Positions 35,273 to 55,901 of a stretch of DNA of 64,000 bases are shown piece after piece; position 1 is the stretch's first letter; each line of letters starts with the position of its first letter. The stretch covers positions 1 to 64,000 of the forward strand of contig CAKZJB010000080.1 of the NCBI GenBank assembly GCA_936940865.1. The letters are read 5' to 3'. The position numbers and the translations under genes were made by a program. The notes below the pieces were generated by a model that ran no database searches, was not told the origin of the DNA, and worked only from the letters and a program-made list of their open reading frames with translations. The stretch comes from an uncultured Asticcacaulis sp. Lineage in GTDB: Bacteria > Pseudomonadota > Alphaproteobacteria > Caulobacterales > Caulobacteraceae.

Positions 35273-35503
35273 TCAGATGGCCGGCTTATAGCCTCGGCCA
35301 GTTTTCTGCCGCGCGATGCGCTCAGCGATTGTGGCCGCGGCATCTTCGTCGCTGAACCAACCCTCCAATGACTGTCCATTCGTTCCTATACGGCCCCAAT
35401 GCCTCAGCACGGAAAAATCTCCGAAAAGACCTGGCTGGATGTCGATTTCGTAGAACCGGGCCATGTTTTTAGCAGGGTCAATCTTGGTCATTCTTTGGGC
35501 CAT
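35273..35503 (-). CDS. WGR-domain protein, 76 aa
   Basis: This is a short protein consisting almost only of a WGR domain, named for its conserved Trp-Gly-Arg: FYEIDIQPGLFGDFSVLRHW continues as GRIGTNGQ. WGR domains occur in poly(ADP-ribose) polymerases and in several bacterial DNA-related proteins, and bind nucleic acid. Stand-alone copies are common in alphaproteobacterial accessory DNA, with unknown role. It has its own near-consensus promoter at 35536-35564. It marks the border between the copper genes and the defence island. Confidence 0.82.
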   Translation of the reverse strand: MAQRMTKIDPAKNMARFYEIDIQPGLFGDFSVLRHWGRIGTNGQSLEGWFSDEDAAATIAERIARQKTGRGYKPAI

Positions 35504-35616: not shown

Positions 35617-36480
35617 CTACGCCTTTTCGAGATGATAACCGGGCGCAATGTCAAGCGTCTCCACGCCGTAAAGCGCCTGCCAATTTCGGAGCCAAAGCTG
35701 GTATTCGTTACCCTCAAGGTGGTGATCCGACGAGCAATCGACATTCCAGCGGCGTAGGAAATATCCGGCCACGGCAGCGCGCAGCTTCAGCCGCAGGACG
35801 CCGTCCTCCATCCTATGTTCAAAAATACAAGTATCCGGGTGCGGCCGTTTGGGGTGCGGAACAAGCTCCAGTTCCAGAATTCGGTTCCATTGAATATCGT
35901 GGTCCCATTGCTCTTCCTCGGCTATTGCGCCCTCGATGATCTTAGGCGCGCCGATACGCGCGAGCACGAAATCAGAAAACCGGCGTCGACGGCGGTCATA
36001 GGCGCGGACATGCCACCGTAGGCCATTATCAACAAGCGCAAACGGAACGATCTCGCGGGTTGTTAAGCCACTGCTGTGCGAGCAGTACTGCGTAGAGATC
36101 GCTCTTCCCTGGTGGATCGCTCGCGTCACAGCGGCCACTACCTCGGTCGCGGGTCGATCGAGCTGTACCGGCAGTTCGGCACGCAATATCGACTTCTTCC
36201 GACGTTCAGACAGTGCAGAGTATCCTTCGGTTATCAGGACAAGGGCGTCCTCACCGCTGTGCAAATAAATGGGTTCGAAGGAATCGGTGCGAACATATTG
36301 CCGAAGAACATGGTCGTATTCCAGGTTCTGGGGCCGCATTTCTCTGTATTCCGCCAAGTCTCGTGTCGCTGCAGGTTCAGAAATTCCAAACCTGTCGGTC
36401 AAGTCCTGTCGGCTGATATCGCCAAGAAACATGAGTCGGAAGTCGATGAAGGTTAGTCGTTCGGTTTGGATGGCGGACAT
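35617..36480 (-). CDS. BrxR/CapW-like WYL-domain transcriptional regulator
   Basis: The 287-residue protein has the three-part design of defence-island regulators BrxR and CapW. These are an N-terminal winged HTH (RLTFIDFRLMFLGDISRQDL, then TDRFGISEPAATRDLAEYRE; about residues 7-55), a central WYL domain (about 130-200, with ISTQYCSHSSG, then REIVPFALVDNGLRWHVRAY) and a C-terminal dimerisation region. Such proteins repress defence operons and respond to a ligand through the WYL pocket. The gene is divergent from the ubiquitin-like operon. The inverted repeat at 36564-36578, inside that operon's promoter, is its likely target. AAGGGAG precedes the ATG. Confidence 0.88.
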   Translation of the reverse strand: MSAIQTERLTFIDFRLMFLGDISRQDLTDRFGISEPAATRDLAEYREMRPQNLEYDHVLRQYVRTDSFEPIYLHSGEDALVLITEGYSALSERRKKSILRAELPVQLDRPATEVVAAVTRAIHQGRAISTQYCSHSSGLTTREIVPFALVDNGLRWHVRAYDRRRRRFSDFVLARIGAPKIIEGAIAEEEQWDHDIQWNRILELELVPHPKRPHPDTCIFEHRMEDGVLRLKLRAAVAGYFLRRWNVDCSSDHHLEGNEYQLWLRNWQALYGVETLDIAPGYHLEKA

Positions 36481-36557
36481 GACGGCTGCGACTCCCTTAG
36501 TTTTTCTGGATTCTCACCGATTTCAAATTGATCTGCAACAAAAATCGTGACGATCAC

Positions 36558-36586
36558 TTGTCATAATCAAAATGATTAGCTATATG
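36558..36586 (+). promoter_or_regulatory. promoter of the ubiquitin-like operon with an operator filling its spacer
   Basis: TTGTCA (36558-36563), a 17-base spacer and TATATG (36581-36586) form the promoter. Within the spacer lies a perfect inverted repeat, TAATCA (36564-36569), AAA, TGATTA (36573-36578), so a bound dimer would exclude RNA polymerase. The divergent WYL regulator gene makes it the obvious candidate binder. An ideal ribosome site AAGGAGG follows at 36607-36613, six to twelve bases before the Ubl ATG. Confidence 0.7.
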
Positions 36587-36618
36587 GATCATATCGACGT
36601 TAACTAAAGGAGGCCTTC

Positions 36619-36885
36619 ATGGCCAAAGAGACCGCCCCCGGGCAAAACAAGCTCATCGAAATCGTAATTAACGGGACCCTGGTGGAGGTCGAGGATCGCG
36701 ATCTTACCTTCGACGAGATCACCCTCCTCGCCTTCCCGAATTTCGAACGCACTGAAAACACGATCTTCACCGTCGCCTACAGCCGAGGCCAGGGGAACAA
36801 GCCGGAAGGCACCCTCGTAGCGGGCGAGACGCTCAAACTCAAAAAGGGGATGATCCTCAATGTCGCCCACACTGATAAATCGTAA
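36619..36885 (+). CDS. ubiquitin-like (multiubiquitin-type) single-domain protein
   Basis: The 88-residue protein resembles one unit of the prokaryotic multiubiquitin family (beta-grasp fold): LIEIVINGTLVEVEDRDLTF, then DEITLLAFPNFERTENTIFT, and a final strand LKKGMILNVAHTDKS. Family members often have two or more tandem copies; here there is one. The C-terminus lacks a Gly-Gly, so it may need processing, or may be activated in another way. It has an excellent ribosome site and is the first gene of the operon under the promoter at 36558-36586. The E1-like gene begins inside its last 26 bases. Confidence 0.75.
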   Translation: MAKETAPGQNKLIEIVINGTLVEVEDRDLTFDEITLLAFPNFERTENTIFTVAYSRGQGNKPEGTLVAGETLKLKKGMILNVAHTDKS

Positions 36886-38050
36886 CGAGGACCTTAAGCG
36901 CTTGCGTGACACCGGCTATGAAATCGTTGTCACGCACGGCCATCTGATCGTTCATTCGATCCCTTACGTGAAATCCAATCGGGAGATTGCCTACGGCTCG
37001 TTGGTTTCCGTGCTGGAGCTGCATGGCGACCAGACGGGCTCACCAATCCAAGACCACATCGCCTATTTTACTGGCGACCAGCCCTGCAACAGCGATGGCT
37101 CGGTGATCAAGCAGATCGAACATTCTGTTTCGGCCCGAACCATCGTTCCGGGACTCACCGTTCAGCGCAGCTTCTCAAATAAGCCCCAGGGTGGCTACCA
37201 AAACTACTACGACAAGATGGTGCGCTATATCACGATCATGTCTAATGCGGCCAAGGCAATCGATCCCGGTGTCACGGCTCAGACCTACAAGTTGATCGAG
37301 AACGACGACGAGGACAGTGTGTTCCTTTACCAGGACTCTGCATCTAGCCGCGCCGGCATCGCCGCGATCAGCGAGAAGCTTAAGATGTCGAAGGTAGCGA
37401 TAATCGGTTTAGGTGGTACAGGTTCATGGGTTTTGGATCTCGTGTCCAAGACGCCGGTCCGCGAAATCCATTTGTTCGATGGGGACAAGTTTCTGCAGCA
37501 CAACGCCTTTCGCTCTCCATCGGCGGCGCCAAAGGAAACTTTCGAGGGGGTTGCACCCAGCAAGGTCGTTTATTGGGCGCAGCACTATGGGAGGTTCCGG
37601 CGGGGAATCGTGCCGAACGAGCTGTATGTGACCGATGAAAATATAGACCTCCTCGACGGCTTTGACTTCGTTTTCATCTGTGTCGACAAGGGCTACGCCC
37701 GCCGTCAGATCATCACAGGCCTGCGGGCGCGAGGCGTCCCGTTCGTCGACACCGGCATGGGCATTTACGTTCAAGACCAGAGTCTAAATCTCTTCGGGAT
37801 GTGCCGGGTTACGCTTGGGACGCCGGAAAAGTTCGACCACCTGGATGCGCGTGTCCCCATGGGCGACGACTTCAACATCGATGACGCGTATGTTCGCAAT
37901 ATCCAGGTCGCCGACTTAAACGCTCTGAACGCCACTCTTGCCGTTATCAAATGGAAGAAGCACTGCGGTTTCTATCAAGACTTCGGGAAAGAGTGCAGCA
38001 TCACTTTCTCGATCAATGACAACCTGCTGGCAAATGACGAGCGCCTATGA
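36860..38050 (+). CDS. E1-like ThiF-family adenylyltransferase with N-terminal DUF6791 domain
   Basis: The 396-residue enzyme should activate the Ubl C-terminus by adenylation. Residues about 1-165 match the DUF6791 type (HIAYFTGDQPCNSDGSVIKQ; SFSNKPQGGYQNYYDKMVRY). Residues about 175-390 are a ThiF/E1 Rossmann domain: VAIIGLGGTGSW (nucleotide loop 183-190), LFDGDKF (Asp 207/209) and FICVDKGYARRQI with the metal-site-like Asp 276. Cys 76 in the N-terminal domain and Cys 274 or 315 in the ThiF part are possible thioester carriers; none is proven. No separate E2 gene is visible, so the N-terminal domain might take that role. It overlaps both neighbours (26 and 4 bases). Confidence 0.85.
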   Translation: MSPTLINRNEDLKRLRDTGYEIVVTHGHLIVHSIPYVKSNREIAYGSLVSVLELHGDQTGSPIQDHIAYFTGDQPCNSDGSVIKQIEHSVSARTIVPGLTVQRSFSNKPQGGYQNYYDKMVRYITIMSNAAKAIDPGVTAQTYKLIENDDEDSVFLYQDSASSRAGIAAISEKLKMSKVAIIGLGGTGSWVLDLVSKTPVREIHLFDGDKFLQHNAFRSPSAAPKETFEGVAPSKVVYWAQHYGRFRRGIVPNELYVTDENIDLLDGFDFVFICVDKGYARRQIITGLRARGVPFVDTGMGIYVQDQSLNLFGMCRVTLGTPEKFDHLDARVPMGDDFNIDDAYVRNIQVADLNALNATLAVIKWKKHCGFYQDFGKECSITFSINDNLLANDERL

Positions 38051-38505
38051 AAATCGAGAAACTGGATCCTCTTTTTGTCGAATTCATCCCGAGAGAACTT
38101 GAGGATGGTATCCTTTACGTTTCAATGACGTACTCGACAGCGTCGCACCGGTGCTGCTGTGGTTGCGGTACGAAAATTGTTACGCCGCTTTCCAAAACGG
38201 ACTGGCGCCTAACCTTTGACGGTACGGTCTCCTTAGCTCCGTCCATTGGCAACTGGAGCATTCCCTGCCAATCCCACTACTGGATCAAGAGCAACGCGGT
38301 TCAAGCGGCTGGGCCGATGTCCAAGCAACTTATCGATGCTGGCAGGGACCAAGATCGGCTGTCGAAGCAGAGGTATTACGACCGATCGCCGCAAGCCCAG
38401 ACCGTGGAACCTGAGAAGGCACGACTGATCGAGCAAGCGCCGGCCCCGAGACGTGGTTTCTTGGGCGGGATAGTCCAGTGGCTCAAGGCATTTTTTGAAC
38501 CATAA
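38047..38505 (+). CDS. DUF6527 protein of the ubiquitin-like operon
   Basis: The 152-residue protein fits DUF6527, which regularly accompanies DUF6791-ThiF and Ubl genes. Visible marks are a Cys cluster (HRCCCGCGTKI, Cys 36, 37, 38, 40), WRLTFDGTVSLAPSIGNWS, and CQSHYWIKSNAV with Ser 76 and His 77. I recall proteins of this kind being assigned a peptidase role (BubE) that trims the Ubl, but I am not certain of that link. The C-terminus has an amphipathic, Trp/Phe-rich helix (GFLGGIVQWLKAFFEP) after a Pro/Arg linker, which could touch the membrane. Its ATG overlaps the E1 stop (ATGA). Confidence 0.78.
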   Translation: MKIEKLDPLFVEFIPRELEDGILYVSMTYSTASHRCCCGCGTKIVTPLSKTDWRLTFDGTVSLAPSIGNWSIPCQSHYWIKSNAVQAAGPMSKQLIDAGRDQDRLSKQRYYDRSPQAQTVEPEKARLIEQAPAPRRGFLGGIVQWLKAFFEP

Positions 38506-44773: not shown

Positions 44774-45952
44774 ATGTCGTCTCTTGCCTGGATCGACTTC
44801 GATGAAGCTGAGCGGCAGCGTGCGCAACGCATCATGGCGCTCTTTCAGGAGCGCGAGACTCGCGACGAGCTTGGGCTGGGTGCGATCCGCGATTCTATCG
44901 CCGATCACCTCTTTCCGGGCACGAGCACGATCCAGACGCGCCTACGATACATGGTGTTCATCCCCTGGCTCTATCGGGCGCTAGAGAAACGCGAGGTCTC
45001 CGAGGCGCAGCTCCGCGCGCAGGCGCGCGACACCGAAATCCGGCTTGCCGACGCCTTGAAAGCCGGTGGCGAGTCTAACGGCATTATAGGCCGCGATGCC
45101 GGACCGCGGCTCCAGCGGCTGCCGAGTTCCGTCTATTGGGCTGGGCTCGGCACGTGGGGCATTCGGGTGTTTCCCGGCTCGCTCGACAGTTTGTTCGTTA
45201 CCTTACGGGGCCGTGGCCGTTCGCGCGGCGCAGGCGGCGGCGAAGACGCTCTGGCTGGTGCGCAGGTGCCCGCCATCTGGAATCCGGCCTTGCCGCAGAT
45301 GCCCGGGGACCTGCTCGAACGCGCAATCTTCCGCCTGACCACGGACGAAGCGCAATTCCTGATCGACCGCCTGGTCGCGAGCCAGCCCACCGCGCTGCTC
45401 ACGATGCTCGCGCGTGAAGGAATCGACGCGGACTGCGACTATATCTGGACGCATCCCCACCTCTCGGCCTTTCCGCCTGCCGCGCGCTGCCTTGTCCAGC
45501 ATGGGGAAATCTTCTCCCATGTAATGCACGGCGCGGCGCTGCTTTATAACCTCGCACTCAGCGAACTGCGTCAGCGCGACGACTGGATTGAGGATTATCG
45601 CGCTCGGCTTGAAGCCTGGAGCGACGAACTCGATTCCGGAGCTGTCCGTGCGTGGTCGCTCGATGAATTTTGGAATGTCGTGGAGCACCCGGCGCATGCC
45701 GTCCGACCGGCCGCCAAGCGGTTCGTGAGCGATTGGCGCGATCTGGTTCTGGCCGGAACAGAGCAGGTAATCTCGGCGCCGGCGGCGCGGCGGGTTGTCG
45801 AGGAGCGCGAACGCCGGCTCAAGACCAGCCAGTCACGCTACGCCAATCACGCTGTCCGCGATCGCTGGACCGGCGCATCGGGTGCCGACCGCCTCAGCTT
45901 CCGCTGGGCGCAAGCCAAATCCCACCTGCGGGATCTCGCACATGCTGAATAG
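44774..45952 (+). CDS. DUF6361 family protein
   Basis: The 392-residue soluble protein matches the DUF6361 family: LAWIDFDEAERQRAQRIMAL, then LGLGAIRDSIADHLFPGTST and RLRYMVFIPWLYRALEKREV near the N-terminus. It has no catalytic motif I can name and looks mainly helical. The family occurs in defence clusters beside a phospholipase D-like protein and a helicase. I associate this trio with the anti-phage system Azaca, from memory and unverified. It lies four bases after the AddA-like gene, and its last 11 bases overlap the PLD gene. Confidence 0.8.
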   Translation: MSSLAWIDFDEAERQRAQRIMALFQERETRDELGLGAIRDSIADHLFPGTSTIQTRLRYMVFIPWLYRALEKREVSEAQLRAQARDTEIRLADALKAGGESNGIIGRDAGPRLQRLPSSVYWAGLGTWGIRVFPGSLDSLFVTLRGRGRSRGAGGGEDALAGAQVPAIWNPALPQMPGDLLERAIFRLTTDEAQFLIDRLVASQPTALLTMLAREGIDADCDYIWTHPHLSAFPPAARCLVQHGEIFSHVMHGAALLYNLALSELRQRDDWIEDYRARLEAWSDELDSGAVRAWSLDEFWNVVEHPAHAVRPAAKRFVSDWRDLVLAGTEQVISAPAARRVVEERERRLKTSQSRYANHAVRDRWTGASGADRLSFRWAQAKSHLRDLAHAE

Positions 45953-47798
45953 GCGGAGCCTCGATCCCGAGCAGCGAACGCTTTACGGCGCCAATCTGCA
46001 GCCGCCAGCGGGCTATGTCTTCGACGCGGCGGTCGCCACGACCTTTTCGCTCGATTTCGAGACCGCGCTTGCCGTGCCGGTCAGTTTGGCGCTCTTCGCC
46101 GCCGAGAACCGCGACGACATTCTCACTCATCCGCTGGCGCTGCTTGAGGGCGCCGAGCGCATCGCTGGCCGCCTCGTCATCTTTACTGACGCCGGCCATA
46201 TCCAGGCGAGCGCGCGGCCGCATTCTCGCCTTTGCTCTCTGCTCGAACGCATCGTCGTCGAGGTCGCCGCCCCTCAAGGCGGAGCCTTCCACCCAAAGAT
46301 GTGGGCGCTGCGCTTCACGCCCCTTCGGCCCGAAGACCCGGCCCGCTTGCGCCTGCTCATTCTCTCCCGAAACCTGACGCGCGACCGCTCGTGGGACATT
46401 GCCGCCACCCTCGACGGCGCAATCACCAAGCAGCCCAAAGCCATCAACCGCCCGGTCGCCGACTTCCTTCGCCAGCTTCCCGACCTCGCTACCGTCGGAG
46501 TTCCCGACGGAACAAAGACGCTTGTCGATGATTTGGCCGAAGACATGCGCCGCACCGAATGGAGCCTGCCCGAACCGTTCCAGAGCGTCTCCTTCGCCGT
46601 CAATGGCCTCGGCGGAAAACCATGGCGCCCGGAACCCTGCGCACGGCTGGGCGTCGTGTCGCCCTTCTGCGACGATCAAACCTTGTCGAAGCTCGCTGGC
46701 CTAGCCAGCGCAACAAAGCCAATCTTCATTGGGCGATCCGACGAACTCGCCCAGGTGCCTGCCGCCACGCTCGATGGCTTTGCCCGCGTGGCCGTGCTCG
46801 ACGAAATGGCTGCGACAGAAGATGGCGAGGAGGAGGACGCATCGGCCCTACAAGGGCTGCATGCCAAGGCGTTCATCGCCGAACGTGGCTGGGACACCGC
46901 GATCACGGTCGGCTCAGGAAACGCCACGCGGCCGGCGCTGCTGACCGGCAGCAATGTCGAGATATTCATTACCCTGACCGGAAAGCGATCGCAGGTCGGC
47001 AGCGTCGAGGAAATCCTCGGCGACAAGGGCTTTGGCCGGTTGACGCGGCCGTTCGTTCACGACGAAACGACAGCCGCCGATGCGGCGCAACGGGCCGCCG
47101 AAGCGCGTTTGGATCAGGCCCGGCGTGAGATTTGCCGTAGCGGTCTCACGCTCCGCTGCGAACGCGGCGAATACGCCGCCGATGCCGCGCCGGTCTGGCG
47201 GGTCTGGCTGGTCCCGTCCGAACCGCTGCCCGTTACGGGGCTCGGCGCGCTTCGTGTTTGGCCGATCACAAGGGGCGAAGGCCATGCGTGCGATGTGCTT
47301 GAGCCGCTCCGGCAGGGACAACCCGCCGACCTTGGCGCAATGCCGTTGGTCGACCTCACCCGGTTCCTCGCCTGTCACCTAACAGACGAGACAGAAGGCG
47401 TCTCTCTCCTGTTCAGCACCGGGCTCTTGATGGAGGGACTGCCTGCAGAGCGCCATTCCGCCATCCTGCGCTGGGTCATCGACAGCAAGGACGCCTTTTT
47501 CCGCTATCTCCGGCTGCTTCTCTCCGAATTGGGCGATCCCTTCGCGGCCGCCCTCGCGGCGCAGGACGGGTCAGGTCAGGGCGCCTGGCGAGCGGCCAGC
47601 GACGATGCCCCCATTCTGGAGGATATGGTTCGCGCCTTCTGTCGGGGCGGAGACCAGCTTCGCGCCATCGAACGGCTCATCACACGCCTGGAAGCCGGCG
47701 ACGGTGACGATACCGATCCGATTCCGGCCGAGTTCCGCGCACTCTGGAACACATTCCGAATTGCACTCGCCACGCAGGATGCCGCGCATGCCGAATGA
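45942..47798 (+). CDS. phospholipase D-like domain protein
   Basis: The 618-residue protein has two half-sites of the PLD superfamily. The first is FHPKMW (His 117, Lys 119) with LSRNLT about 25 residues on. The second is LHAKAF (His 307, Lys 309) followed by GSGNAT near 325. In defence systems such proteins act as nucleases or phosphodiesterases. The C-terminal 250 residues have no recognisable domain. The ATG at 45942 overlaps the DUF6361 stop, and its end overlaps the helicase start by 11 bases. The longer frame upstream of 45942 lies wholly inside the DUF6361 gene and is not used. Confidence 0.82.
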   Translation: MLNRRSLDPEQRTLYGANLQPPAGYVFDAAVATTFSLDFETALAVPVSLALFAAENRDDILTHPLALLEGAERIAGRLVIFTDAGHIQASARPHSRLCSLLERIVVEVAAPQGGAFHPKMWALRFTPLRPEDPARLRLLILSRNLTRDRSWDIAATLDGAITKQPKAINRPVADFLRQLPDLATVGVPDGTKTLVDDLAEDMRRTEWSLPEPFQSVSFAVNGLGGKPWRPEPCARLGVVSPFCDDQTLSKLAGLASATKPIFIGRSDELAQVPAATLDGFARVAVLDEMAATEDGEEEDASALQGLHAKAFIAERGWDTAITVGSGNATRPALLTGSNVEIFITLTGKRSQVGSVEEILGDKGFGRLTRPFVHDETTAADAAQRAAEARLDQARREICRSGLTLRCERGEYAADAAPVWRVWLVPSEPLPVTGLGALRVWPITRGEGHACDVLEPLRQGQPADLGAMPLVDLTRFLACHLTDETEGVSLLFSTGLLMEGLPAERHSAILRWVIDSKDAFFRYLRLLLSELGDPFAAALAAQDGSGQGAWRAASDDAPILEDMVRAFCRGGDQLRAIERLITRLEAGDGDDTDPIPAEFRALWNTFRIALATQDAAHAE

Positions 47799-50700
47799 AC
47801 GGTTTCGCGCCGACGTGGCGCTCGCTCCTCTCAAGGTCTTTCAGCGGCGGACCGTCGACTACGTCTTCGATCGGCTATACGGCCAGAACGATCCTGTCCG
47901 CCAGTTCCTTGTCGCCGACGAAGTTGGCCTCGGCAAGACGATGGTGGCGCGCGGGGTCATAGCCCGCATGATAGAACACCTGTGGGACAGCACCAAGCGG
48001 ATCGACATCCTCTACATCTGCTCGAACCAGGCGATCGCCGCCCAGAACCTCAACCGGCTGAACGTCCTCGGGCGGCGCGAGGTGGCCCTGCCAACCCGCA
48101 TGACGCTCGTTCCTCTGCAACTACGCGACCAGTCGGGCCTCGACGCCAACAAGGTGAACTTCATCAGCCTGACGCCAGGCACGACCTTCGATCTGCGCTC
48201 CTCGACAGGCGTGACGCAGGAACGCGCCTTGCTGCTCCATCTCCTGCGTGACCTCGTTACGCGCCCGCGCGGCCTGCACAACCTGTTGCAAGTCACGGCT
48301 GGCGTCGATGGCTGGAACCGTGCCGTGGACAATCTCACCCTCGACGGCGTCGACAAGCACATCATCGAGCGTTTCCGCCGCGACGTGCAGGCGGATCGCG
48401 ACCTCTTCGAGGAACTCGAACGAGTTTGCGAACTCTTCCCGCGGCGCCGGGACTCCTATCCCGCAGAAATGACAAAGCCCCGCAACAACCTGGTCGCTCG
48501 GCTCCGCGCCAAGCTGTCTCACGCCTGCGTGGATGCGCTGCAACCCGACCTCATCATCATGGACGAATTCCAGCGGTTCCGGGATCTGCTGCATGGCGAC
48601 AGCGACGCAGCGATCCTCGCACGCGAGCTTTTCGACTACTCTGGGGGTGACGGACACGCCGCCCGCACCCTGCTACTCTCCGCCACACCCTACCGGATGC
48701 TCACGCTAGCCGGCGACGAGCCCGACGAAGGCGACCACTATCAGGATTTCCTTGAGACCTTGAGTTTCCTCTACGGTCGCGAAAACGGGCCGGAAGTGGC
48801 CGCCAAGCTGGCGCAAGAAATGCGCGCCTTTCGTGGTCTCCTACATGCCCTGCCGCAGTCGCATGCCTCCGCTGTCGAAACTCGCCGGGCTATCGAACAG
48901 CGCCTGCGCCAAGTGATTGCTCGAACCGAGCGGGTCGCATCCACAGTCGAGCGCGACTCCATGATGAGCGAACCCGCCATCACGGTCTCGATCGCGCCCG
49001 CCGACCTCGTGCAGGCATCGGCCTTGTCGCAAGTGGCGCGCACGCTCGATGCGCCGGAAATCATTGAATACTGGAAATCGGCACCTTACCTGCTCAACTT
49101 CATGCGCCACTACAGCCTGAAGCAACTTCTAACGAACGAGGCGGCGGCGCCTTCGGCGACCCTCCGCGATGCCATTCAGGCGGCGCGGCCGGCCATGCTC
49201 GATCACGAGGCCATCAACATTTATGCGCCGTTGGAGCCGGCCAACGGCCGCATGCGCGCAATCATGGACGACATCTTCGGCCAGAACCTCGAGCAAAATC
49301 TCTGGATACCCGCCGCCATGCCATACTACGGCGATGCACGATTTGGCGCGCCGCTGACCAAGGCGCTGATATTTTCGTCATGGTCGATGGTGCCCGATGC
49401 GGTCGCGGCCCTGCTTTCCTTTGAGGCTGAACGCCGCATGGGCGTCGGGGAATCCGGCCGGCGCTATTTCGAGCAGCATCGTCTGCGCCCCTTGCAGTTC
49501 CGACAGGATCAGGGCCGGCACGTGGGACTGCGCGCGCTGCTTCTGATCTATCCATCGCCGACTCTGGCCGAGTTGGCCGATCCGCTCGCGGTTTTCAGTG
49601 AAACCGAAACTGTCTTGTCGCAGGAGGGCATGCGCGCAGCCATAAGCGATCGCCTCAAGCCCGCTCTTGAGGCTCTGAGCAAAGGGGCTGTGTCGCAGCC
49701 GGACGCCAATAGCGCCGAGTGGGCCGCTCCCGCCGTGATCGATGACCTGCTGGGCGCGCGATCCCGCCCTTGGCTGGAGGCGCCTCACGGCATGCGCGCC
49801 CTGGCGAGCGAAGACGCCTTTCAGGATCATGTCGCCGAACTGGCGGCAGCGGTGGAGGCACACGACATCGGCGCTTCGTCCGCCGATCTCTCGGATCTGC
49901 TGGTTGACGTGGCGCTCGGCAGCCCAGCCGTCTGCGCGCTTCGCGCCCTCAAGCGGATCGCACCGGAGCTGTCATGGGACGACCCGCACTTGCTCAGCGG
50001 TGCCGCTGAAGTCGCCTGGTCGTTCCGGGCATTGTTCAACCAGCATGATGCGGTCGCCTTGCTGCGGCGGGATACCGACGATCACTACTGGCGTCGCGTG
50101 CTGGTCTATTGCTGCGAACACAATCTCCAGGCCGTCCTCGACGAATACGCCCACTACCTTGTCGATGCCGAGGGCCTTGGCGCGCGCCCTGCCGAAGAGC
50201 GCGCAATGGGTGTCGCCCGCGCCATGGCCCAGGCCTTGGCTATCCGCCCGTCGCAGATCGACGTTGACGACGTGCATGTCGATGGCGACACCCTCTCCAT
50301 AAGCAAATTCCAGATGCGCGGGCGCTTCGCTATGCGGCTCTCCGACTACAAGGACGAAGACGGCGCCGTCGCGCGGCTCGGAGGCGTGCGCGATGCGTTC
50401 AACTCGCCGTTCCGGCCGTTCGTTCTCGCCACCACGTCCGTCGGCCAGGAGGGACTGGATTTCCATCCCTATTGCTATCGCGTCTATCACTGGAACCTGC
50501 CCAGCAATCCGGTGGACCTTGAACAGCGTGAAGGCCGTGTCCACCGCTTCAAGGGCCACGCCGTGCGCCTCAACCTGGCGGAGCGCCAGGTCAGTGTAGT
50601 CAGTGGTGGTGGGGAGGCGCCGGACGATCCGTGGAAGCTGATGTTCGAGCGCGCTCGATCCGAAGCGACGGTCGACACCGATCTCATTCCCTATTGGATC

Positions 50701-50934
50701 TACGAGGGCTCCGTCCGGGTCGAGCGGCGCGTGCCAATGTTGCCGTTCAGCCGCGAAGTCACGCGGCTCGCCTGGCTCAAACGCAGCCTGACGGTTTATC
50801 GCTTGGCCTTCGGTCAACCGCGGCAGGACGACCTGCTCGATTACCTGCAAACGCTGGCCGGCGACGGGATGGACTCCAACATGCTTACAGACTTGCAAAT
50901 TCGGCTTGAGCCGCGGCTGTGGCCCTTCGAATGA
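47788..50934 (+). CDS. SNF2/DEAD-type superfamily 2 helicase
   Basis: The 1048-residue protein is an SF2 helicase or translocase. Walker A is DEVGLGKT (residues 44-51), motif II is the variant MDEFQRF (near 258-264), motif III is LLLSATPYRML, and the C-terminal lobe has SVGQEGLDFHPYCYRVYHWN with a DLEQREGRVHRFKGH arginine-finger motif (about 885-925). The DEFQ box in place of DEAH is typical of defence-linked helicases. About 350 residues between the lobes are unassigned. It is the last gene of the five-gene operon, coupled by overlap to the PLD gene. Confidence 0.88.
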   Translation: MPNERFRADVALAPLKVFQRRTVDYVFDRLYGQNDPVRQFLVADEVGLGKTMVARGVIARMIEHLWDSTKRIDILYICSNQAIAAQNLNRLNVLGRREVALPTRMTLVPLQLRDQSGLDANKVNFISLTPGTTFDLRSSTGVTQERALLLHLLRDLVTRPRGLHNLLQVTAGVDGWNRAVDNLTLDGVDKHIIERFRRDVQADRDLFEELERVCELFPRRRDSYPAEMTKPRNNLVARLRAKLSHACVDALQPDLIIMDEFQRFRDLLHGDSDAAILARELFDYSGGDGHAARTLLLSATPYRMLTLAGDEPDEGDHYQDFLETLSFLYGRENGPEVAAKLAQEMRAFRGLLHALPQSHASAVETRRAIEQRLRQVIARTERVASTVERDSMMSEPAITVSIAPADLVQASALSQVARTLDAPEIIEYWKSAPYLLNFMRHYSLKQLLTNEAAAPSATLRDAIQAARPAMLDHEAINIYAPLEPANGRMRAIMDDIFGQNLEQNLWIPAAMPYYGDARFGAPLTKALIFSSWSMVPDAVAALLSFEAERRMGVGESGRRYFEQHRLRPLQFRQDQGRHVGLRALLLIYPSPTLAELADPLAVFSETETVLSQEGMRAAISDRLKPALEALSKGAVSQPDANSAEWAAPAVIDDLLGARSRPWLEAPHGMRALASEDAFQDHVAELAAAVEAHDIGASSADLSDLLVDVALGSPAVCALRALKRIAPELSWDDPHLLSGAAEVAWSFRALFNQHDAVALLRRDTDDHYWRRVLVYCCEHNLQAVLDEYAHYLVDAEGLGARPAEERAMGVARAMAQALAIRPSQIDVDDVHVDGDTLSISKFQMRGRFAMRLSDYKDEDGAVARLGGVRDAFNSPFRPFVLATTSVGQEGLDFHPYCYRVYHWNLPSNPVDLEQREGRVHRFKGHAVRLNLAERQVSVVSGGGEAPDDPWKLMFERARSEATVDTDLIPYWIYEGSVRVERRVPMLPFSREVTRLAWLKRSLTVYRLAFGQPRQDDLLDYLQTLAGDGMDSNMLTDLQIRLEPRLWPFE

Positions 50935-51015: not shown

Positions 51016-53928
51016 ATGAGGGAAAGCAAGCGGGGTTTATCGTTGCCATTTATCAATCAGGAGCAACGGCAGGTTATCGAGGCCCTGGACGGGCCAGTTC
51101 TGGTGGTTGCAGGGCCGGGCTCAGGCAAAACGTTTTCACTCGTAGAGAGGACTGTTAATCTTCTTCTACAGAGGCGAATAGATCCCAAACGAATTTTACT
51201 TTCGACGTTCACCGAGAAAGCCGCGAAAGAGCTGAAAACGCGGATCAGCAATCGACTGCAAAGATCGAGCTTGGAAGTGAACCCGCTCGATCTCACAATC
51301 GGAACGCTTCACGCAATTTGCCTGGAATTGATCGATGAGTTCAGGGCGTTCTCCCGACTGCGCCGAAACTACACCGTTCTCGATCAATTTGATCAGCAAT
51401 ACTTCGTCTTCCAGCGCATGTCCGAATTCCGTCAGATCGACGGTCTCGAAGCGTTCGTAACGCCATACGCGAATGCTTCCTCTTGGCGGATCGCAGAACG
51501 CCTATGCGCTTATTTGAACAAAATATCGGAGGAGGCTATCGACGGTACAGCGTTGGGAACCGCCTCCGCGCCTGAACTTCAAGTCTTGAGCCAGGCATAC
51601 GTTCGGTACCGGGAACTGCTCGATCAGTACAATTACATCGACTTTTCGACAATTCAGGTCGAGCTTTTGAGACTTTTGAATTTGCCCGACGTGGCCGACA
51701 AACTGTGCGATCGCTACGACTATTTGATGATCGATGAGTATCAAGACACCAACACTATCCAAGAAAAAATCGTGCTCAAACTGGCCTCGCGCCACAACAA
51801 TATCTGCGTTGTCGGAGACGACGACCAGTCGCTATATCGGTTCAGAGGCGCGTCAATTCGCAATATTTTGGAATTTGAAAAGCGCTTCCCTGCCGGAATT
51901 TGCCGCCAAATTTATTTGACAAAGAACTACCGGTCGCACCCTGACATCGTGGAATTTTACAACGGTTGGATGCTCCAGGCCGACTGGCGAGGTGCCGACT
52001 ATGACTACCGATTTGCCAAGGTTATCGAGGCCGCTGGAGATGACCGTGCGAAGCGGCCGGCCGTGTTTAAAGTCTCAGGGCATGACGGCGAAAGCGACTG
52101 GTCTGCCGAGGTTATTGCCCATCTGACCCGACTGAAGGCCGAGAGAATTTTAAAAGATTGGAACCAGGTTGCCTTCTTATTTCGCTCAGTCCGTAATCCC
52201 AAAGTTGTGCAATTCGCGAGCGACCTTGAGGCGGCGGGCATACCGATCTACGCGCCGCGTTCAAACATGTACTTCGAGCGCGAAGAGATCAGGCTCATGG
52301 TCGGCGCCTACATGTTCATGTTCCCCCAATATGGTTCGCTTCGGGTCACACGCGACGGGATGCAACTGGACGTCTGGACTTACTTCGACGACTGCCTTGC
52401 TCAGTTCATCACGCATTTAAGGACCGGGACTGATCCGCAGATTGGAGCTTGGATCAAAGACCGTGCGAAACAACATCTGACCTTGTCAGAAAATACCAAC
52501 TACTCGTTCGCCAGTCTTTTCTATCAGCTAATCCAGTTCCCGACCTTCAGTCGGTTTCTAGGCGAGGATGTAGCACACGGCGGTTTAAGGGATAGTCGGC
52601 CCGCCCGGAATCTAGCGAAGTTTTCCAGGCTGCTGAACAAATACGAATACTTGTATCACGTGATCGTCCTTCAGCCTGACAGGCTGGAACGGGACCTAAT
52701 CGGTCTGTTCAATTATTTCTTTCGTTTTCTGTGGGATGGGGGCATCGACGAATACGAGGATCAAACCGAATACGCGCCGTCGGGATGCGTTTCCTTTATG
52801 ACAATTCACCAGTCGAAGGGGCTGGAGTTTCCTATCGTGTTCGTCGGCTCTCTTGACGCATTTCCACGTCGTCAGCAGTCGCCACTGGACGACCTTCTTG
52901 ATTCGGAGTTCGGTGACGGCCTGCCATTCGAACCCTTGGATCGCGTGAAGACGTTCGATTTCTGGCGACTGTTTTACACGGCGTTTTCACGCGCCCAGAA
53001 CATACTGGTACTTACATGTCAGGAAAACACCCCGAAGGGGCGCGGACAACGGAATGTGCCATCGCAATATTTCCAGCCCATATACGCAAATCTTGAGGAC
53101 TGGCGCGCTCTGACTTTCAATCCTTCTGAGGTGACCTTAGCAACGATCAAGGACAGCAATATCAAGAATAGCTATTCGTTTACGTCCGACGTGCTCATTT
53201 TTGAAGCGTGCCCGCAACAATATCGATTTTTCAAAGATCTCGATTTTGCGCCAGTTCGAACGAACGCTATCCTGTTCGGCACGTTGGTCCATCAGACCAT
53301 TGAAGACATTCATAAGGCCGTGCTGCGGGGCGAAGAAACGAAGGTCACGAGCGATCAAATCGACCTATGGTTCAAAAGCAATTACGCCAATATCTCTCAG
53401 AAGGAACGGGTGTACCTCGCGGACGCAGCATTGAGGATCGCTAGACGCCATGTCGCTAACTATGTGGACCGTGAGCGCAACAACTGGCATCGATTGCGCG
53501 AGGCTGAAATAGAACTTAGCCTCTTGAAGGACGACTACGTACTCACAGGGACCGTCGATCTGATCGAAGCGGACGATGGGGCTTGGGAGATCGTCGATTT
53601 CAAAACCGAAAAAAAGCCCGACCTGATCGACGATGTGGAAAAACTTGCCCGTTATCGTCGCCAGTTGCAGATATACGCCCATTTGTTTGAAGAGAAGCGA
53701 GGGGTGCGCGTTGACCGAATGACGATCTATTACACTGGAGAAGAGGCAGGCAACCCACGGATTACCTTCCCAAGGGAGACCGCCGACATCAGGGGAACAA
53801 TTGAAAAAGTGGACGGCGTCATCGGCAAAATAGTTGCCAAGAGGTACCAGATGAACGAACGTCCAGAAAAAATCTGTAAGAACTGCGACTTCCGGTCATT
53901 CTGCGACATGACGTTCTGCCGTCAATGA
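51016..53928 (+). CDS. UvrD-type helicase fused to a Cas4/AddB-like Fe-S nuclease
   Basis: The 970-residue protein starts with a UvrD/PcrA SF1 helicase: Walker A AGPGSGKT (32-39), LSTFTEKAAKELKTRI, motif II IDEYQDTN (about 240), GDDDQSLYRFRGASI and TIHQSKGLEFPIVF. The C-terminal 250 residues are a RecB-like nuclease with ILFGTLVHQTIEDIHKAV, GTVDLIEADDGAWEIVDFKT (near 850) and four Cys at 954, 957, 963 and 968. With CPQQYRFF near 732 they form the Fe-S signature of Cas4 and AddB. The start is uncertain because no strong ribosome site is visible; a TTG near 51043 is an alternative. Base composition turns AT-richer here, and the Mod gene follows 29 bases on. Confidence 0.88.
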   Translation: MRESKRGLSLPFINQEQRQVIEALDGPVLVVAGPGSGKTFSLVERTVNLLLQRRIDPKRILLSTFTEKAAKELKTRISNRLQRSSLEVNPLDLTIGTLHAICLELIDEFRAFSRLRRNYTVLDQFDQQYFVFQRMSEFRQIDGLEAFVTPYANASSWRIAERLCAYLNKISEEAIDGTALGTASAPELQVLSQAYVRYRELLDQYNYIDFSTIQVELLRLLNLPDVADKLCDRYDYLMIDEYQDTNTIQEKIVLKLASRHNNICVVGDDDQSLYRFRGASIRNILEFEKRFPAGICRQIYLTKNYRSHPDIVEFYNGWMLQADWRGADYDYRFAKVIEAAGDDRAKRPAVFKVSGHDGESDWSAEVIAHLTRLKAERILKDWNQVAFLFRSVRNPKVVQFASDLEAAGIPIYAPRSNMYFEREEIRLMVGAYMFMFPQYGSLRVTRDGMQLDVWTYFDDCLAQFITHLRTGTDPQIGAWIKDRAKQHLTLSENTNYSFASLFYQLIQFPTFSRFLGEDVAHGGLRDSRPARNLAKFSRLLNKYEYLYHVIVLQPDRLERDLIGLFNYFFRFLWDGGIDEYEDQTEYAPSGCVSFMTIHQSKGLEFPIVFVGSLDAFPRRQQSPLDDLLDSEFGDGLPFEPLDRVKTFDFWRLFYTAFSRAQNILVLTCQENTPKGRGQRNVPSQYFQPIYANLEDWRALTFNPSEVTLATIKDSNIKNSYSFTSDVLIFEACPQQYRFFKDLDFAPVRTNAILFGTLVHQTIEDIHKAVLRGEETKVTSDQIDLWFKSNYANISQKERVYLADAALRIARRHVANYVDRERNNWHRLREAEIELSLLKDDYVLTGTVDLIEADDGAWEIVDFKTEKKPDLIDDVEKLARYRRQLQIYAHLFEEKRGVRVDRMTIYYTGEEAGNPRITFPRETADIRGTIEKVDGVIGKIVAKRYQMNERPEKICKNCDFRSFCDMTFCRQ

Positions 53929-53957
53929 CCAAGAAACAAAATCCGCTAAGGCATTAG

Positions 53958-55901
53958 ATGAGCAAAGAGACCCAAGAAGCATTCGAGACATTTGAATTCG
54001 ACCTACCCCCAATTCGCGGCTTTCCCGAATTGCGCTGGGCTGGGAAACGCCCTTTTAAGTCCACACAGTATTTTCCCGCCCAACGAAAGGAAGCCTACGG
54101 CGACCCGTGCGGCGGCTGGTGGAACCGTATCTATTGGGGTGACAATTTACAAGTGATGTCTCACCTGCTCAGAGAGTTTCGGGGCAAAGTAGACCTTATA
54201 TATATTGACCCGCCGTTTGACAGCAAAGCAGATTACAAGAAGGTTGTATCTGTTAAATCCGTGAGCCTAAAGAATGATTATACATCCTTTGAAGAAGCGC
54301 AATACGGCGATATATGGGTAAATGATCAATATTTGCAATTTATGTATGAGCGATTGATCGTATTGCGTGAGTTGCTAAGTGAAAAGGGCAGCATATTTGT
54401 TCACTGCGATGTAAATAGAAATTACGTGATACGCTTGATAATGGATGAGATTTTCGGCCGTGCAAATTTTAAAAATGAAATAATTTGGAAACGGCGCGTC
54501 GGCAGCAGTAGTGCCGTACACGACTCCAACCAATTTGGCGTCTCAACCGACACCATTTTGTTTTATTCTAAAAGTGCGGATTCCACGTTCATTCCGCAGT
54601 ACAACAAAGACACGGAAGAGTATCAAGAATACATTAGGACGCGCTTTACAAGCAAAGACGCGAGTGGCCGCCTTTACCAAGCCACAAGCCTTGTGAACCC
54701 TGGCTATCGCCCAAACCTGATCTACGACTACAAAGGGTACAAGTCGCCTCCGAACGGTTGGATGATTGGCCGTGAAAAAATGGAACAGTGGGACAAAGAA
54801 GGTCGGCTACATTTTCCCGAAAGCAAAGAGGGGCGCATTAGGCGGAAGAGCTTCGCAGACGAACTTCTCGGGATGCCCATTCAGAATATCTGGACTGACA
54901 TCAAAGAGGTGAACTCCCAAGCCGCTGAGAGATTGGATTATCCAACCCAAAAGCCTGAGCAGCTTTTACGCCGTATCATTGGTACGACGACGCAGCCAGG
55001 CGATCTCGTTTTGGACTGCTTTATGGGGTCTGGCACCACTCAGGCCGTTGCTATGAAAATGGGGCGACGTTTTATTGGCGCCGACATCAATATCGGCGCG
55101 GTGGAAACGGCCACTAAACGTCTCAATGAAGTACGTCAGTCCGCCGAGGTGCCTGATTCGCTATTTCCTGAAAATCAAACGGATTTTTCCGGCACAACTT
55201 ATGCCGGATTCGAGGTGTTCAACGTAAACAATTACGACCTGTTCCGGAACCCTATCGAAGCGCGCGCGCTGATACGCGAAGCCATGGAATTGCAACCACT
55301 CCCTCCCAGCAGCGTCTTCGATGGGCAACGTGATGGATACCTTGTCAAAATCATGCCCATGAACCGGATAGCCACGCGACAAGACCTCAATGAAATCCTG
55401 AACGGCCTAGATTTTAAAGCTTTTGAACGCCGCCAGTCCGAGGCCCCGAACAAGCCCGTCGAGCGTATTCACCTCGTATGCATGGGACATGAGCCCGACC
55501 TAGGGCCAGAACTGGTGAAGGAGACCAAGCCCTATGATATCGAGGTGATGGTCACTGACCTAATTAGGGACAAAGCGCATCTGCATTTCAAGAAGGCCTC
55601 CGATGCGAGACTTGCAATCGAGTCAGGCAATCTAATCGTTAAGGGCTTCTACCCGATGAACCTTTTGCAAAAGCTGTCCGTGGCAAAAGAGGCAGTGGAT
55701 GATTGGCGGCAACTTGTCGAAAGCATTAAGGTTGACTTTAATTACGACGGTGCTGTTTTGACACCCGCAATTGTTGATTCACCTGGCGAAAATCAGCTAG
55801 TGGCCGGGACCTATCCCATTCCTTCAGACGCCGGCACGATCAGAGTGAAGATTACTGATTTGCTCTCCGAGTCTTGGGAGGGGGAAATCGATAATGGCTA
55901 A
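53958..55901 (+). CDS. mod: type III-like N6-adenine DNA methyltransferase (Mod)
   Basis: The 647-residue enzyme transfers methyl from SAM to adenine in DNA. The catalytic motif DPPF (with VDLIYIDPPFDSKADY, near residue 84) precedes the SAM motif LVLDCFMGSGTT (near 350-360), the order of beta-class enzymes such as type III Mod. GGWWNRIYWGDNLQVMSHLL is the typical entry to the domain, and SEKGSIFVHCDVNRNYVIRL follows. The C-terminal 250 residues are the usual poorly conserved region. AAGG lies eight bases before the ATG. Its last eight bases overlap the Res gene, confirming a two-subunit restriction-modification pair. Confidence 0.92.
   Translation: MSKETQEAFETFEFDLPPIRGFPELRWAGKRPFKSTQYFPAQRKEAYGDPCGGWWNRIYWGDNLQVMSHLLREFRGKVDLIYIDPPFDSKADYKKVVSVKSVSLKNDYTSFEEAQYGDIWVNDQYLQFMYERLIVLRELLSEKGSIFVHCDVNRNYVIRLIMDEIFGRANFKNEIIWKRRVGSSSAVHDSNQFGVSTDTILFYSKSADSTFIPQYNKDTEEYQEYIRTRFTSKDASGRLYQATSLVNPGYRPNLIYDYKGYKSPPNGWMIGREKMEQWDKEGRLHFPESKEGRIRRKSFADELLGMPIQNIWTDIKEVNSQAAERLDYPTQKPEQLLRRIIGTTTQPGDLVLDCFMGSGTTQAVAMKMGRRFIGADINIGAVETATKRLNEVRQSAEVPDSLFPENQTDFSGTTYAGFEVFNVNNYDLFRNPIEARALIREAMELQPLPPSSVFDGQRDGYLVKIMPMNRIATRQDLNEILNGLDFKAFERRQSEAPNKPVERIHLVCMGHEPDLGPELVKETKPYDIEVMVTDLIRDKAHLHFKKASDARLAIESGNLIVKGFYPMNLLQKLSVAKEAVDDWRQLVESIKVDFNYDGAVLTPAIVDSPGENQLVAGTYPIPSDAGTIRVKITDLLSESWEGEIDNG

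Follow-up and report, generated by a model that had tools for sequence, protein, structure and literature searches.

A DUF6791-type Bub operon in an uncultured Asticcacaulis: a putative ubiquitin-like conjugation pathway with a serine-ended modifier

Results

A 64,000-nucleotide (nt) stretch of DNA from an uncultured Asticcacaulis sp. (assembly GCA_936940865.1, contig CAKZJB010000080.1; hereafter the window) carries a four-gene locus at positions 35,617 to 38,505, the operon of which is of a known kind, Bub (bacterial ubiquitination-like), and belongs to its DUF6791 branch. A preliminary description of the sequence had proposed a compact ubiquitin-like pathway here; this idea was right in kind, and the kind is already known as Bub and was foreshadowed in 2006 (PMC1779556). 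The operon probably attaches a ubiquitin-like protein (Ubl) to targets under stress. The reading that we favour, and regard as fairly probable, is a repressed, stress-inducible Ubl conjugation system of the DUF6791 Bub type that uses oxygen nucleophiles instead of cysteines.

All four open reading frames (ORFs) of the preliminary description were recovered at the same coordinates in an ORF check of the window, and Pfam gave each of them its family. The minus-strand gene at 35617..36480, divergent from the operon, encodes a WYL-domain repressor of the BrxR/CapW family with 287 amino acids (aa; Pfam WYL, 4.4e-12). On the plus strand lie the gene of a single-domain Ubl ending in T-D-K-S (36619..36885; 88 aa; Multi_ubiq, PF14452, 1.7e-13), the gene of an E1-like adenylating enzyme (36860..38050; 396 aa; ThiF, 1.8e-11, residues 171-300) and the gene of a DUF6527 protein (38047..38505; 152 aa; Pfam DUF6527, 1.2e-22). 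Residues 10-160 of the E1 (36887..37339, plus strand) make up the DUF6791 domain (Pfam, 1.3e-54). The NCBIfam equivalog NF004805 (PRK06153, 'hypothetical protein') spans the whole E1 (3.9e-159), next to weak ThiF/MoeB matches. Neither an E2 gene nor a JAB gene was found in the operon, and Pfam detected no JAB domain in the E1. No PADLOC model covers the gene set; the window E1 gave weak E1-E2 matches over the ThiF core only, and the WYL protein matched the PADLOC WYL models.

By profile and by fold, the solved structure nearest to the E1 is a Bub protein. A profile of eight E1 sequences searched against solved structures placed Citrobacter BubCD first (2.3e-10), before TcdA, UBA5, MccB and MoeB, and Foldseek with the E1 model again had BubCD at the top (4.5e-11). 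With BubCD nearest by profile and by fold, the earlier assignment to a ubiquitin-like, conjugation-type pathway is upheld. The core of the DUF6791-type E1s aligned with nine JAB-type Bub E1s at 99.05% probability (E 2.1e-18), and two JAB-type E1s used as queries matched BubCD over both the JAB and the E1 domains (5.9e-26 and 1.1e-39).

Tyr344 of the E1 (codon 37889..37891, plus strand) is the proposed acyl-acceptor residue. It is present in 29/29 complete E1s (5 of 34 were left out of residue counts as incomplete; the 29 include the near-identical loci L003/L004, L008/L092 and L095/L096) and aligns with a Tyr that is invariant in the nine JAB-type E1s. PDB titles name the BubCD mutants D104A and Y370F; by our count in the alignment, both numbers are lower by 2 than the chain index. 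D104 is the final Asp in the JAMM motif S-x-x-D; Y370 falls on the Tyr within 'GYITG...PSVITLN' and corresponds to Tyr344 of the window. To judge from the mutant title, Y370 would be the acyl acceptor of BubCD, and Tyr344 may carry the Ubl as an oxyester. The catalytic Cys of UBA5 occupies the place corresponding to Tyr344, before the same helix. As for the cysteines that had been put forward as catalytic, C76 is kept in 22, C274 in 20 and C315 in 4 of the 29 E1s; none is invariant, and this proposal was given up. C274 was constant in alignments of eight and nine sequences and lost its constancy when more were included.

The C-terminal residue of the Ubl is conserved. In the window the last 26 nt of the Ubl gene (36860..36885, plus strand) are also the start of the E1 gene, with the codon of Ubl Ser88 at 36880-36882. 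This overlap is absent from the preliminary description; the same one occurs in 33/34 loci differing in DUF6791 sequence. The exception, L015, has a longer annotated overlap, and its Ubl also ends in Ser, after Glu. Since a stop codon at this position was a condition of the overlap search, the constancy of the stop is by construction; that of the Ser is not. Among 29 distinct overlap sequences the Ubl always ends in Ser, for which all four TCN codons are used, and with L015 the count is 30/30; each of the 29 has K, R or Q in the penultimate place, and no Gly stands at the end of any of these or of L015. Residue 8 of the E1, read from the bases of the Ser codon, varies (R 14, H 9, L 5, P 1). 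The constancy of the Ser next to this variation shows that it is the end of the Ubl that is under selection. In the eight JAB-type loci with a readable Ubl end, the Ubl stops in or near a Gly: the ends are TTEG (twice), QTEG, PGR, FGHGNH and FGL, and two have a Gly at the Ubl-E2 junction. In the DUF6791 branch, therefore, JAB is missing together with the Gly that it would expose. Most simply, the Ubl of this branch would be born mature; alternatively, its end may serve as a short protease-recognition tail. The nearest PDB structure, both by single sequence (2.9e-11) and by profile, is 9cd2 (ZDHYS365 multi-ubiquitin domain protein). The likeness lies in its last domain and in the tail, with TDKS as the same last four residues; it differs in being a 222-aa protein, compared with the one domain of the window Ubl. 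Its tail suggests that 9cd2 belongs to the DUF6791 branch, and the structure of such a Ser-tailed Ubl is already public under this entry.

Within the DUF6791 region, L15, P35, H66, G72, P75, S106 (codon 37175-37177, plus strand), K108 (37181-37183) and Y123 are invariant in the 29 E1s. The AlphaFold2 (AF2) model of the E1 has a mean predicted local distance difference test score of 73.8, with about 85 in the N-terminal domain, and shows DUF6791 as helices, then six strands, then one helix. A Pfam scan of 23 DUF6791 domains revealed no second family, only single weak chance matches. In Bub E2 proteins the motif W-S-x-H is invariant (7/7), and a forced full-length alignment placed S106-x-K108 of DUF6791 on the S-x-H of this motif; 0/43 circular shifts reached the score, but the column-shuffle and reversed-profile controls were failed, and we treat the match as unproven. 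From its position, its length and the Ser, it is plausible that DUF6791 is the E2 of the system, an assignment unsupported by sequence.

Three residues stand out in DUF6527. C36 (codon 38152-38154), S66 (38242-38244) and H77 (38275-38277, all plus strand) are each found in 34/34 proteins of the DUF6791 operon type and in 7/7 of the JAB type. In the remaining 57 rows, mostly viral with some operon-type or bacterial members, they are kept in 56, 54 and 55 cases, respectively, S66 being replaced by Cys twice and by Met once. These counts leave out two truncated rows, and the seven JAB-type rows do not include that of L137. C38, C40, C74 and S76 are variable, C74 being Tyr in 16 of the 57 remaining rows. 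A plain zinc finger was rejected because the variation at C38, C40 and C74 contrasts with the constancy of C36 and H77. A RefSeq record of the same operon type, from E. coli ES2, is named 'ubiquitination-like system serine protease family protein'; in two further records from E. coli the protein is just called DUF6527. This name of one homologue together with the conservation makes DUF6527 a probable serine protease, for which S66 and H77 are the natural candidate and likely the catalytic pair. The AF2 model is confident (core ~97). Searches against the PDB gave no credible relative, either by sequence, where matches of the 8prj type were repeats with no stretch significant alone, or by fold (best E 1.2). 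In a viral structure library, one 89-aa protein was close to the model (template modelling score 0.97 of the target). The earlier suggestion that DUF6527 is a trimming enzyme stands in part: a protease is compatible with the RefSeq name, but the protein is not a plain stand-in for JAB, being present in 8/9 JAB-type loci. Moreover, the invariant last residue of the Ubl means that trimming may be dispensable.

DUF6527 of the DUF6791 branch ends in a linker and a Trp-rich helix. In the window this Trp-containing amphipathic helix takes up the last 18 residues (38449..38502, plus strand; AF2 helix 140-150, low confidence). Over 33 tails, Trp accounts for 8.9% of the last 18 residues and for 1.3% of the stretch immediately preceding them; in 26/33 the helical moment is higher than the mean of the shuffles. 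These figures are descriptive only, since the loci are related. These are 33 of 34 complete tails; L003 was dropped as its tail is apparently frame-shifted compared to L004, and nine incomplete ones were excluded. JAB-type DUF6527 proteins have a similar hydrophobic, mostly Trp/Phe-rich stretch at the N-terminus, as judged by eye. The recurrence of the same element at opposite ends in the two branches suggests an anchor or docking helix.

A DUF6527 core of about 90 aa also occurs in most of 67 viral loci (among them the IMG/VR loci L022-L084; 7 of the 67 on contigs >200 kb) and in three named phages (H41-H43). DUF6791 was detected by profile in only three of the 67 (L019, L020 and L021). The C-terminal helix is absent from most viral copies; of 57 complete proteins of the mostly viral group, 6 have tails of at least 16 residues. 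The core ORF was recognised in part of the 67 loci, and of 110 script-listed neighbours we chose 66, which belong to 26 loci; operon-type loci, near-copies and reading frames judged spurious were excluded. One of the 66 was a Tad8-like Thoeris inhibitor, and no Pfam family matched more than two of them. The viral DUF6527 proteins may be deconjugases or decoys.

The two branches were compared by reading nine JAB-E1 loci. An E2/UBC gene or domain is present in 8/9 and DUF6527 in 8/9, with L138 showing neither. As DUF6527 is common to both branches, E2 and JAB are what DUF6791 replaces. The E2 profile matched 0/60 fetched loci with DUF6791 (near-copies counted). Two of the JAB-type loci have a further gene between JAB-E1 and DUF6527 (L137, 3943-5451; L142, 4094-5698), which is annotated as a phosphotransferase in L142 and encodes a protein of 502 aa, alike by eye, in L137. 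In the window's own genome there was no match to Prok-E2_E or to an in-house E2 alignment, the two E2 searches made genome-wide. One unlinked Prok-JAB match lay above the cut-off (27.5 bits, contig C27) and one below; the family was also matched in 11/14 control genomes. The absence of a separate E2 and of a JAB peptidase therefore holds at the locus; for JAB it does not strictly hold for the genome.

In a sample of 299 genomes of the phylum, which includes the window's own, DUF6791 was found in 7, Multi_ubiq in 10 and DUF6527 in 12. All 7 DUF6791 genomes also carry Multi_ubiq and DUF6527, and this co-occurrence is far from chance. Among 72,556 plasmid records the E1 occurs in 115 (E limit 1e-5), and DUF6527 was found in 120 plasmid records (E limit 1e-3). 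The E1 was found in 0 records of a phage collection, and a related operon in 3/5,426 E. coli genomes. The loci that were read, 17 from plasmids (one without annotation) and 7 from genomes, come from Pseudomonadota, Bacteroidota, Cyanobacteriota, Actinomycetota and Bacillota and have the gene order Ubl (1-3 domains), E1, DUF6527. Their annotations show no E2 gene and no JAB gene, and DUF6791 and DUF6527 were detected by profile in all 17 plasmid loci. In some records the Ubl was unannotated or the genes were 'hypothetical', and these were found by profile or reading frame.

Some additional genes recur around the operons. A DUF2188 protein lies between regulator and Ubl in L008, L014, L092 and L141, in both Bub branches. 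A UvrD-like helicase gene is located immediately upstream of the Ubl in L009, L011, L093 and L095 (plasmids, several groups) and further upstream in L015. A small WGR-domain protein is encoded near the operon in the window (35273-35503), L014, L015 and L142, again in both branches.

The WYL protein of the window is a full-length relative of the BrxR/CapW regulators, matching BrxR (7qfz, 1.9e-79, residues 2-283), CapW (9c5g, 1.1e-32) and a second BrxR structure (7t8k, 3.5e-22). Its gene and the Ubl gene share an intergenic region of 138 bp. A weak candidate operator is located therein (36564..36578, strand not assigned), an inverted repeat with perfect 6-bp arms and a 3-bp spacer, whose arms were equalled in 253/1000 shuffles of the region. 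A promoter scan found none, with 2.1 expected by chance. The upstream genes vary by locus: WYL in the window, L001 and L010; a helix-turn-helix protein with an ImmA/IrrE peptidase, like CapH+CapP; an ATP-binding protein with MarR; others or none. The preliminary description drew attention to a WYL-controlled minimal form, but such control is not distinctive: CapW or CapH+CapP is already reported for 219/544 Bub operons (PMC13373217).

Downstream of the operon follow an AddAB-like pair (our naming), ZacA, ZacC, a UvrD-PDDEXK protein, a methyltransferase and DnaE2/ImuB-like genes, and the setting is a mixed defence and DNA-repair island. The ZacA and ZacC-like genes (44774-50934; PADLOC 1.8e-135 and 0) adjoin the operon; the middle gene between them (45915-47798) had no Pfam match. 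The segment at 51016-58590 encodes a UvrD-helicase/PDDEXK fusion, a type II-like DNA methyltransferase and an 898-aa protein whose end is weakly TnsA-like, below the cut-off. At 52-58 kb of the window the GC content is 47-51%, below that of the flanks.

Discussion

If the operon is a stress-inducible conjugation system with oxygen nucleophiles, its steps may be pictured as follows. The WYL protein would repress the divergent promoter until a DNA-damage-type signal arrives, as expected from its CapW and BrxR relatives. The Ubl would be made with its final C-terminus, T-x-K-S, and its invariant end suggests that no JAB trimming is needed. The ThiF domain, recognised by motifs and family, would adenylate this C-terminus, and the Ubl would then pass to the conserved Tyr344 as an oxyester, by analogy with Bub. 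Ye and co-workers are said to have found in 2026 that Bub pathways run on oxyesters instead of thioesters. DUF6791, with S106, K108 and H66, could do the transfer job of the separate E2 of JAB-type Bub, as its position suggests. DUF6527, with S66/H77 as the likely pair and its Trp-rich helix as anchor, may trim or remove conjugates at a membrane or docking surface. A stricter version, which we put forward only tentatively, is a two-protein, cysteine-free machine. E1 and E2 would be combined in one polypeptide that carries the Ubl on Tyr344 and then on Ser106 (base Lys108) as oxyesters; the Ubl would be activated at its C-terminal Ser, JAB maturation would be unnecessary, DUF6527 would be the only protease, and the helix-less phage DUF6527 proteins would be counter-defence deconjugases.

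Several observations weigh against conjugation through oxygen nucleophiles with DUF6791 as the E2. A search with the single E1 sequence ranks UBA5 (6.3e-5) and TcdA (1.6e-4) above BubCD (0.016). In the E1 tree the DUF6791-E1 proteins form one clade (100/100) on a very long branch, and the JAB group is weakly supported (64/34); the tree is unrooted with three groups and carries no sister-group information on JAB-type versus sulfur-transfer E1s. DUF6791 and the E2 profile are not significantly related by hhalign, and the score of the forced alignment was reached by 28/100 column shuffles and exceeded by the reversed profile. A Ser C-terminus is unlike that of known Ubls, so the adenylation step could differ. 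In the literature searched, to which the main Bub papers did not belong, no activity for the DUF6791 branch was found, and protection against phage has, according to PMC13373217, yet to be demonstrated for Bub operons.

The lack of sequence support for an E2 also feeds a different division of labour within the same Bub-type system, in which DUF6791 is a peptidase or regulatory stand-in for JAB and the E1 transfers the Ubl directly to targets without an E2. DUF6791 occupies the place of the fused JAB in JAB-type E1s, and its invariant H66, S106 and K108 could be hydrolytic; Iyer, Burroughs and Aravind called JAB-like action of such an N-terminal domain a 'tempting' guess (PMC1779556). We nevertheless consider this arrangement unlikely: the Ubl has no variable or Gly-exposing extension to cut, the system already has DUF6527, which one record names a protease, and a comparison of DUF6791 with the JAB-E1 profile also found nothing. 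Highly improbable, in our judgement, is a sulfur-transfer system or one that modifies small molecules or peptides (MoeB/ThiF/TcdA/MccB-like) instead of protein conjugation. The ThiF-type adenylation motifs are common to those enzymes, and the weak NCBIfam ThiF/MoeB matches, the rank of TcdA ahead of BubCD in the single-sequence search and the unrooted tree are all compatible with it. The first rank of BubCD by profile and fold speaks for conjugation, as do the absence of an invariant Cys in the 29 E1s and of a rhodanese by Pfam, a Multi_ubiq Ubl without C-terminal Gly-Gly, and a constant partner, DUF6527, that is also found in E2-containing operons.

A further question is what the operon serves. 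That it is a stress-response or plasmid-maintenance module and not phage defence would leave the biochemistry unchanged and is compatible with the other readings; we give this a serious chance, somewhat short of even. Conjugative or mobilizable plasmids account for 83 of the 115 E1 records, regulators of several DNA-damage types interchange upstream, neighbours in the loci include UmuDC, SOS peptidase, DarT-like, UvrD/AddAB-like and DnaE2/ImuB genes, and the missing demonstration of phage protection for Bub fits as well. On the side of defence, ZacA/ZacC and a type II-like methyltransferase neighbour the operon in the window, which is the setting of a defence island, and 48% of the homologues of BrxR are found together with known phage-defence systems (PMC9122601).

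The DUF6791 branch may represent the smallest version of Bub, with no separate E2, no JAB, no conserved E1 Cys and a Ser-ended modifier. To our knowledge, a Gly rule at the C-terminus is common to the known Ubl families. If it is true that the Ser end is activated, the branch would break this rule and would provide a simple three-gene system. Direct tests of the mechanism can now aim at Y344, S106, K108 and H66 of the E1 and at S66, H77 and C36 of DUF6527 in place of the cysteines, which were the wrong targets. The presence of DUF6527 in phages suggests that pathways of this kind are the subject of an arms race.

Bil (BilABCD) and type II CBASS (Cap2/Cap3) combine E1-driven conjugation with JAB peptidases and Cys-type E2 proteins. 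The window operon would resemble them in E1-driven conjugation, the PADLOC E1-E2 models aligning weakly over the ThiF core; it differs in that JAB peptidase and Cys-type E2 are both absent at the locus. The gene content was thus rightly described as unlike that of Bil and CBASS type II. With BrxR/CapW the window regulator shares a whole-length match and the divergent placement, and differs in having only a weak candidate palindrome as operator.

The closest earlier description is a subset of the type 6e operons of Iyer, Burroughs and Aravind, in which an uncharacterized N-terminal domain replaces JAB (PMC1779556). Its features, 1-3 Ubl repeats, an E1 with a non-JAB N-terminal domain and a C-x3-C protein, are all found in the window, and we infer that the N-terminal domain is DUF6791. 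The last motif was given there as H-x2-C versus C-x2-H here, and the zinc-finger guess of those authors fits badly with the variable C38, C40 and C74. Among the literature matches listed, the DUF6791 branch is touched only by PMC1779556, PMC13373217 and a review mention in PMC12687455. The names DUF6527 and DUF6791 were not found in the literature searched, and the matches listed hold no description of the Ser-ended Ubl, the Tyr344 alignment, the S106/K108/H66 set, the swapped DUF6527 helix or the phage DUF6527 copies.

The resemblance to the Bub family that the preliminary description had pointed out is confirmed by the shared Ubl family, E1 core, conserved Tyr and DUF6527. Compared to Citrobacter BubA/BubB/BubCD, the window has a Multi_ubiq Ubl, a BubC-related E1 core, a conserved Tyr in place of the catalytic Cys, a DUF6527 partner downstream and the same kinds of exchangeable regulators (CapW, CapH+CapP-like). 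It differs in having DUF6791 instead of the E2-like Prok-E2_E protein (BubB) and the JAB peptidase domain (BubD), and in a Ubl that ends in Ser and not in Gly. Because E2 and JAB were tested for and are absent, we file the operon as the DUF6791 branch of Bub, and not as a four-part Bub.

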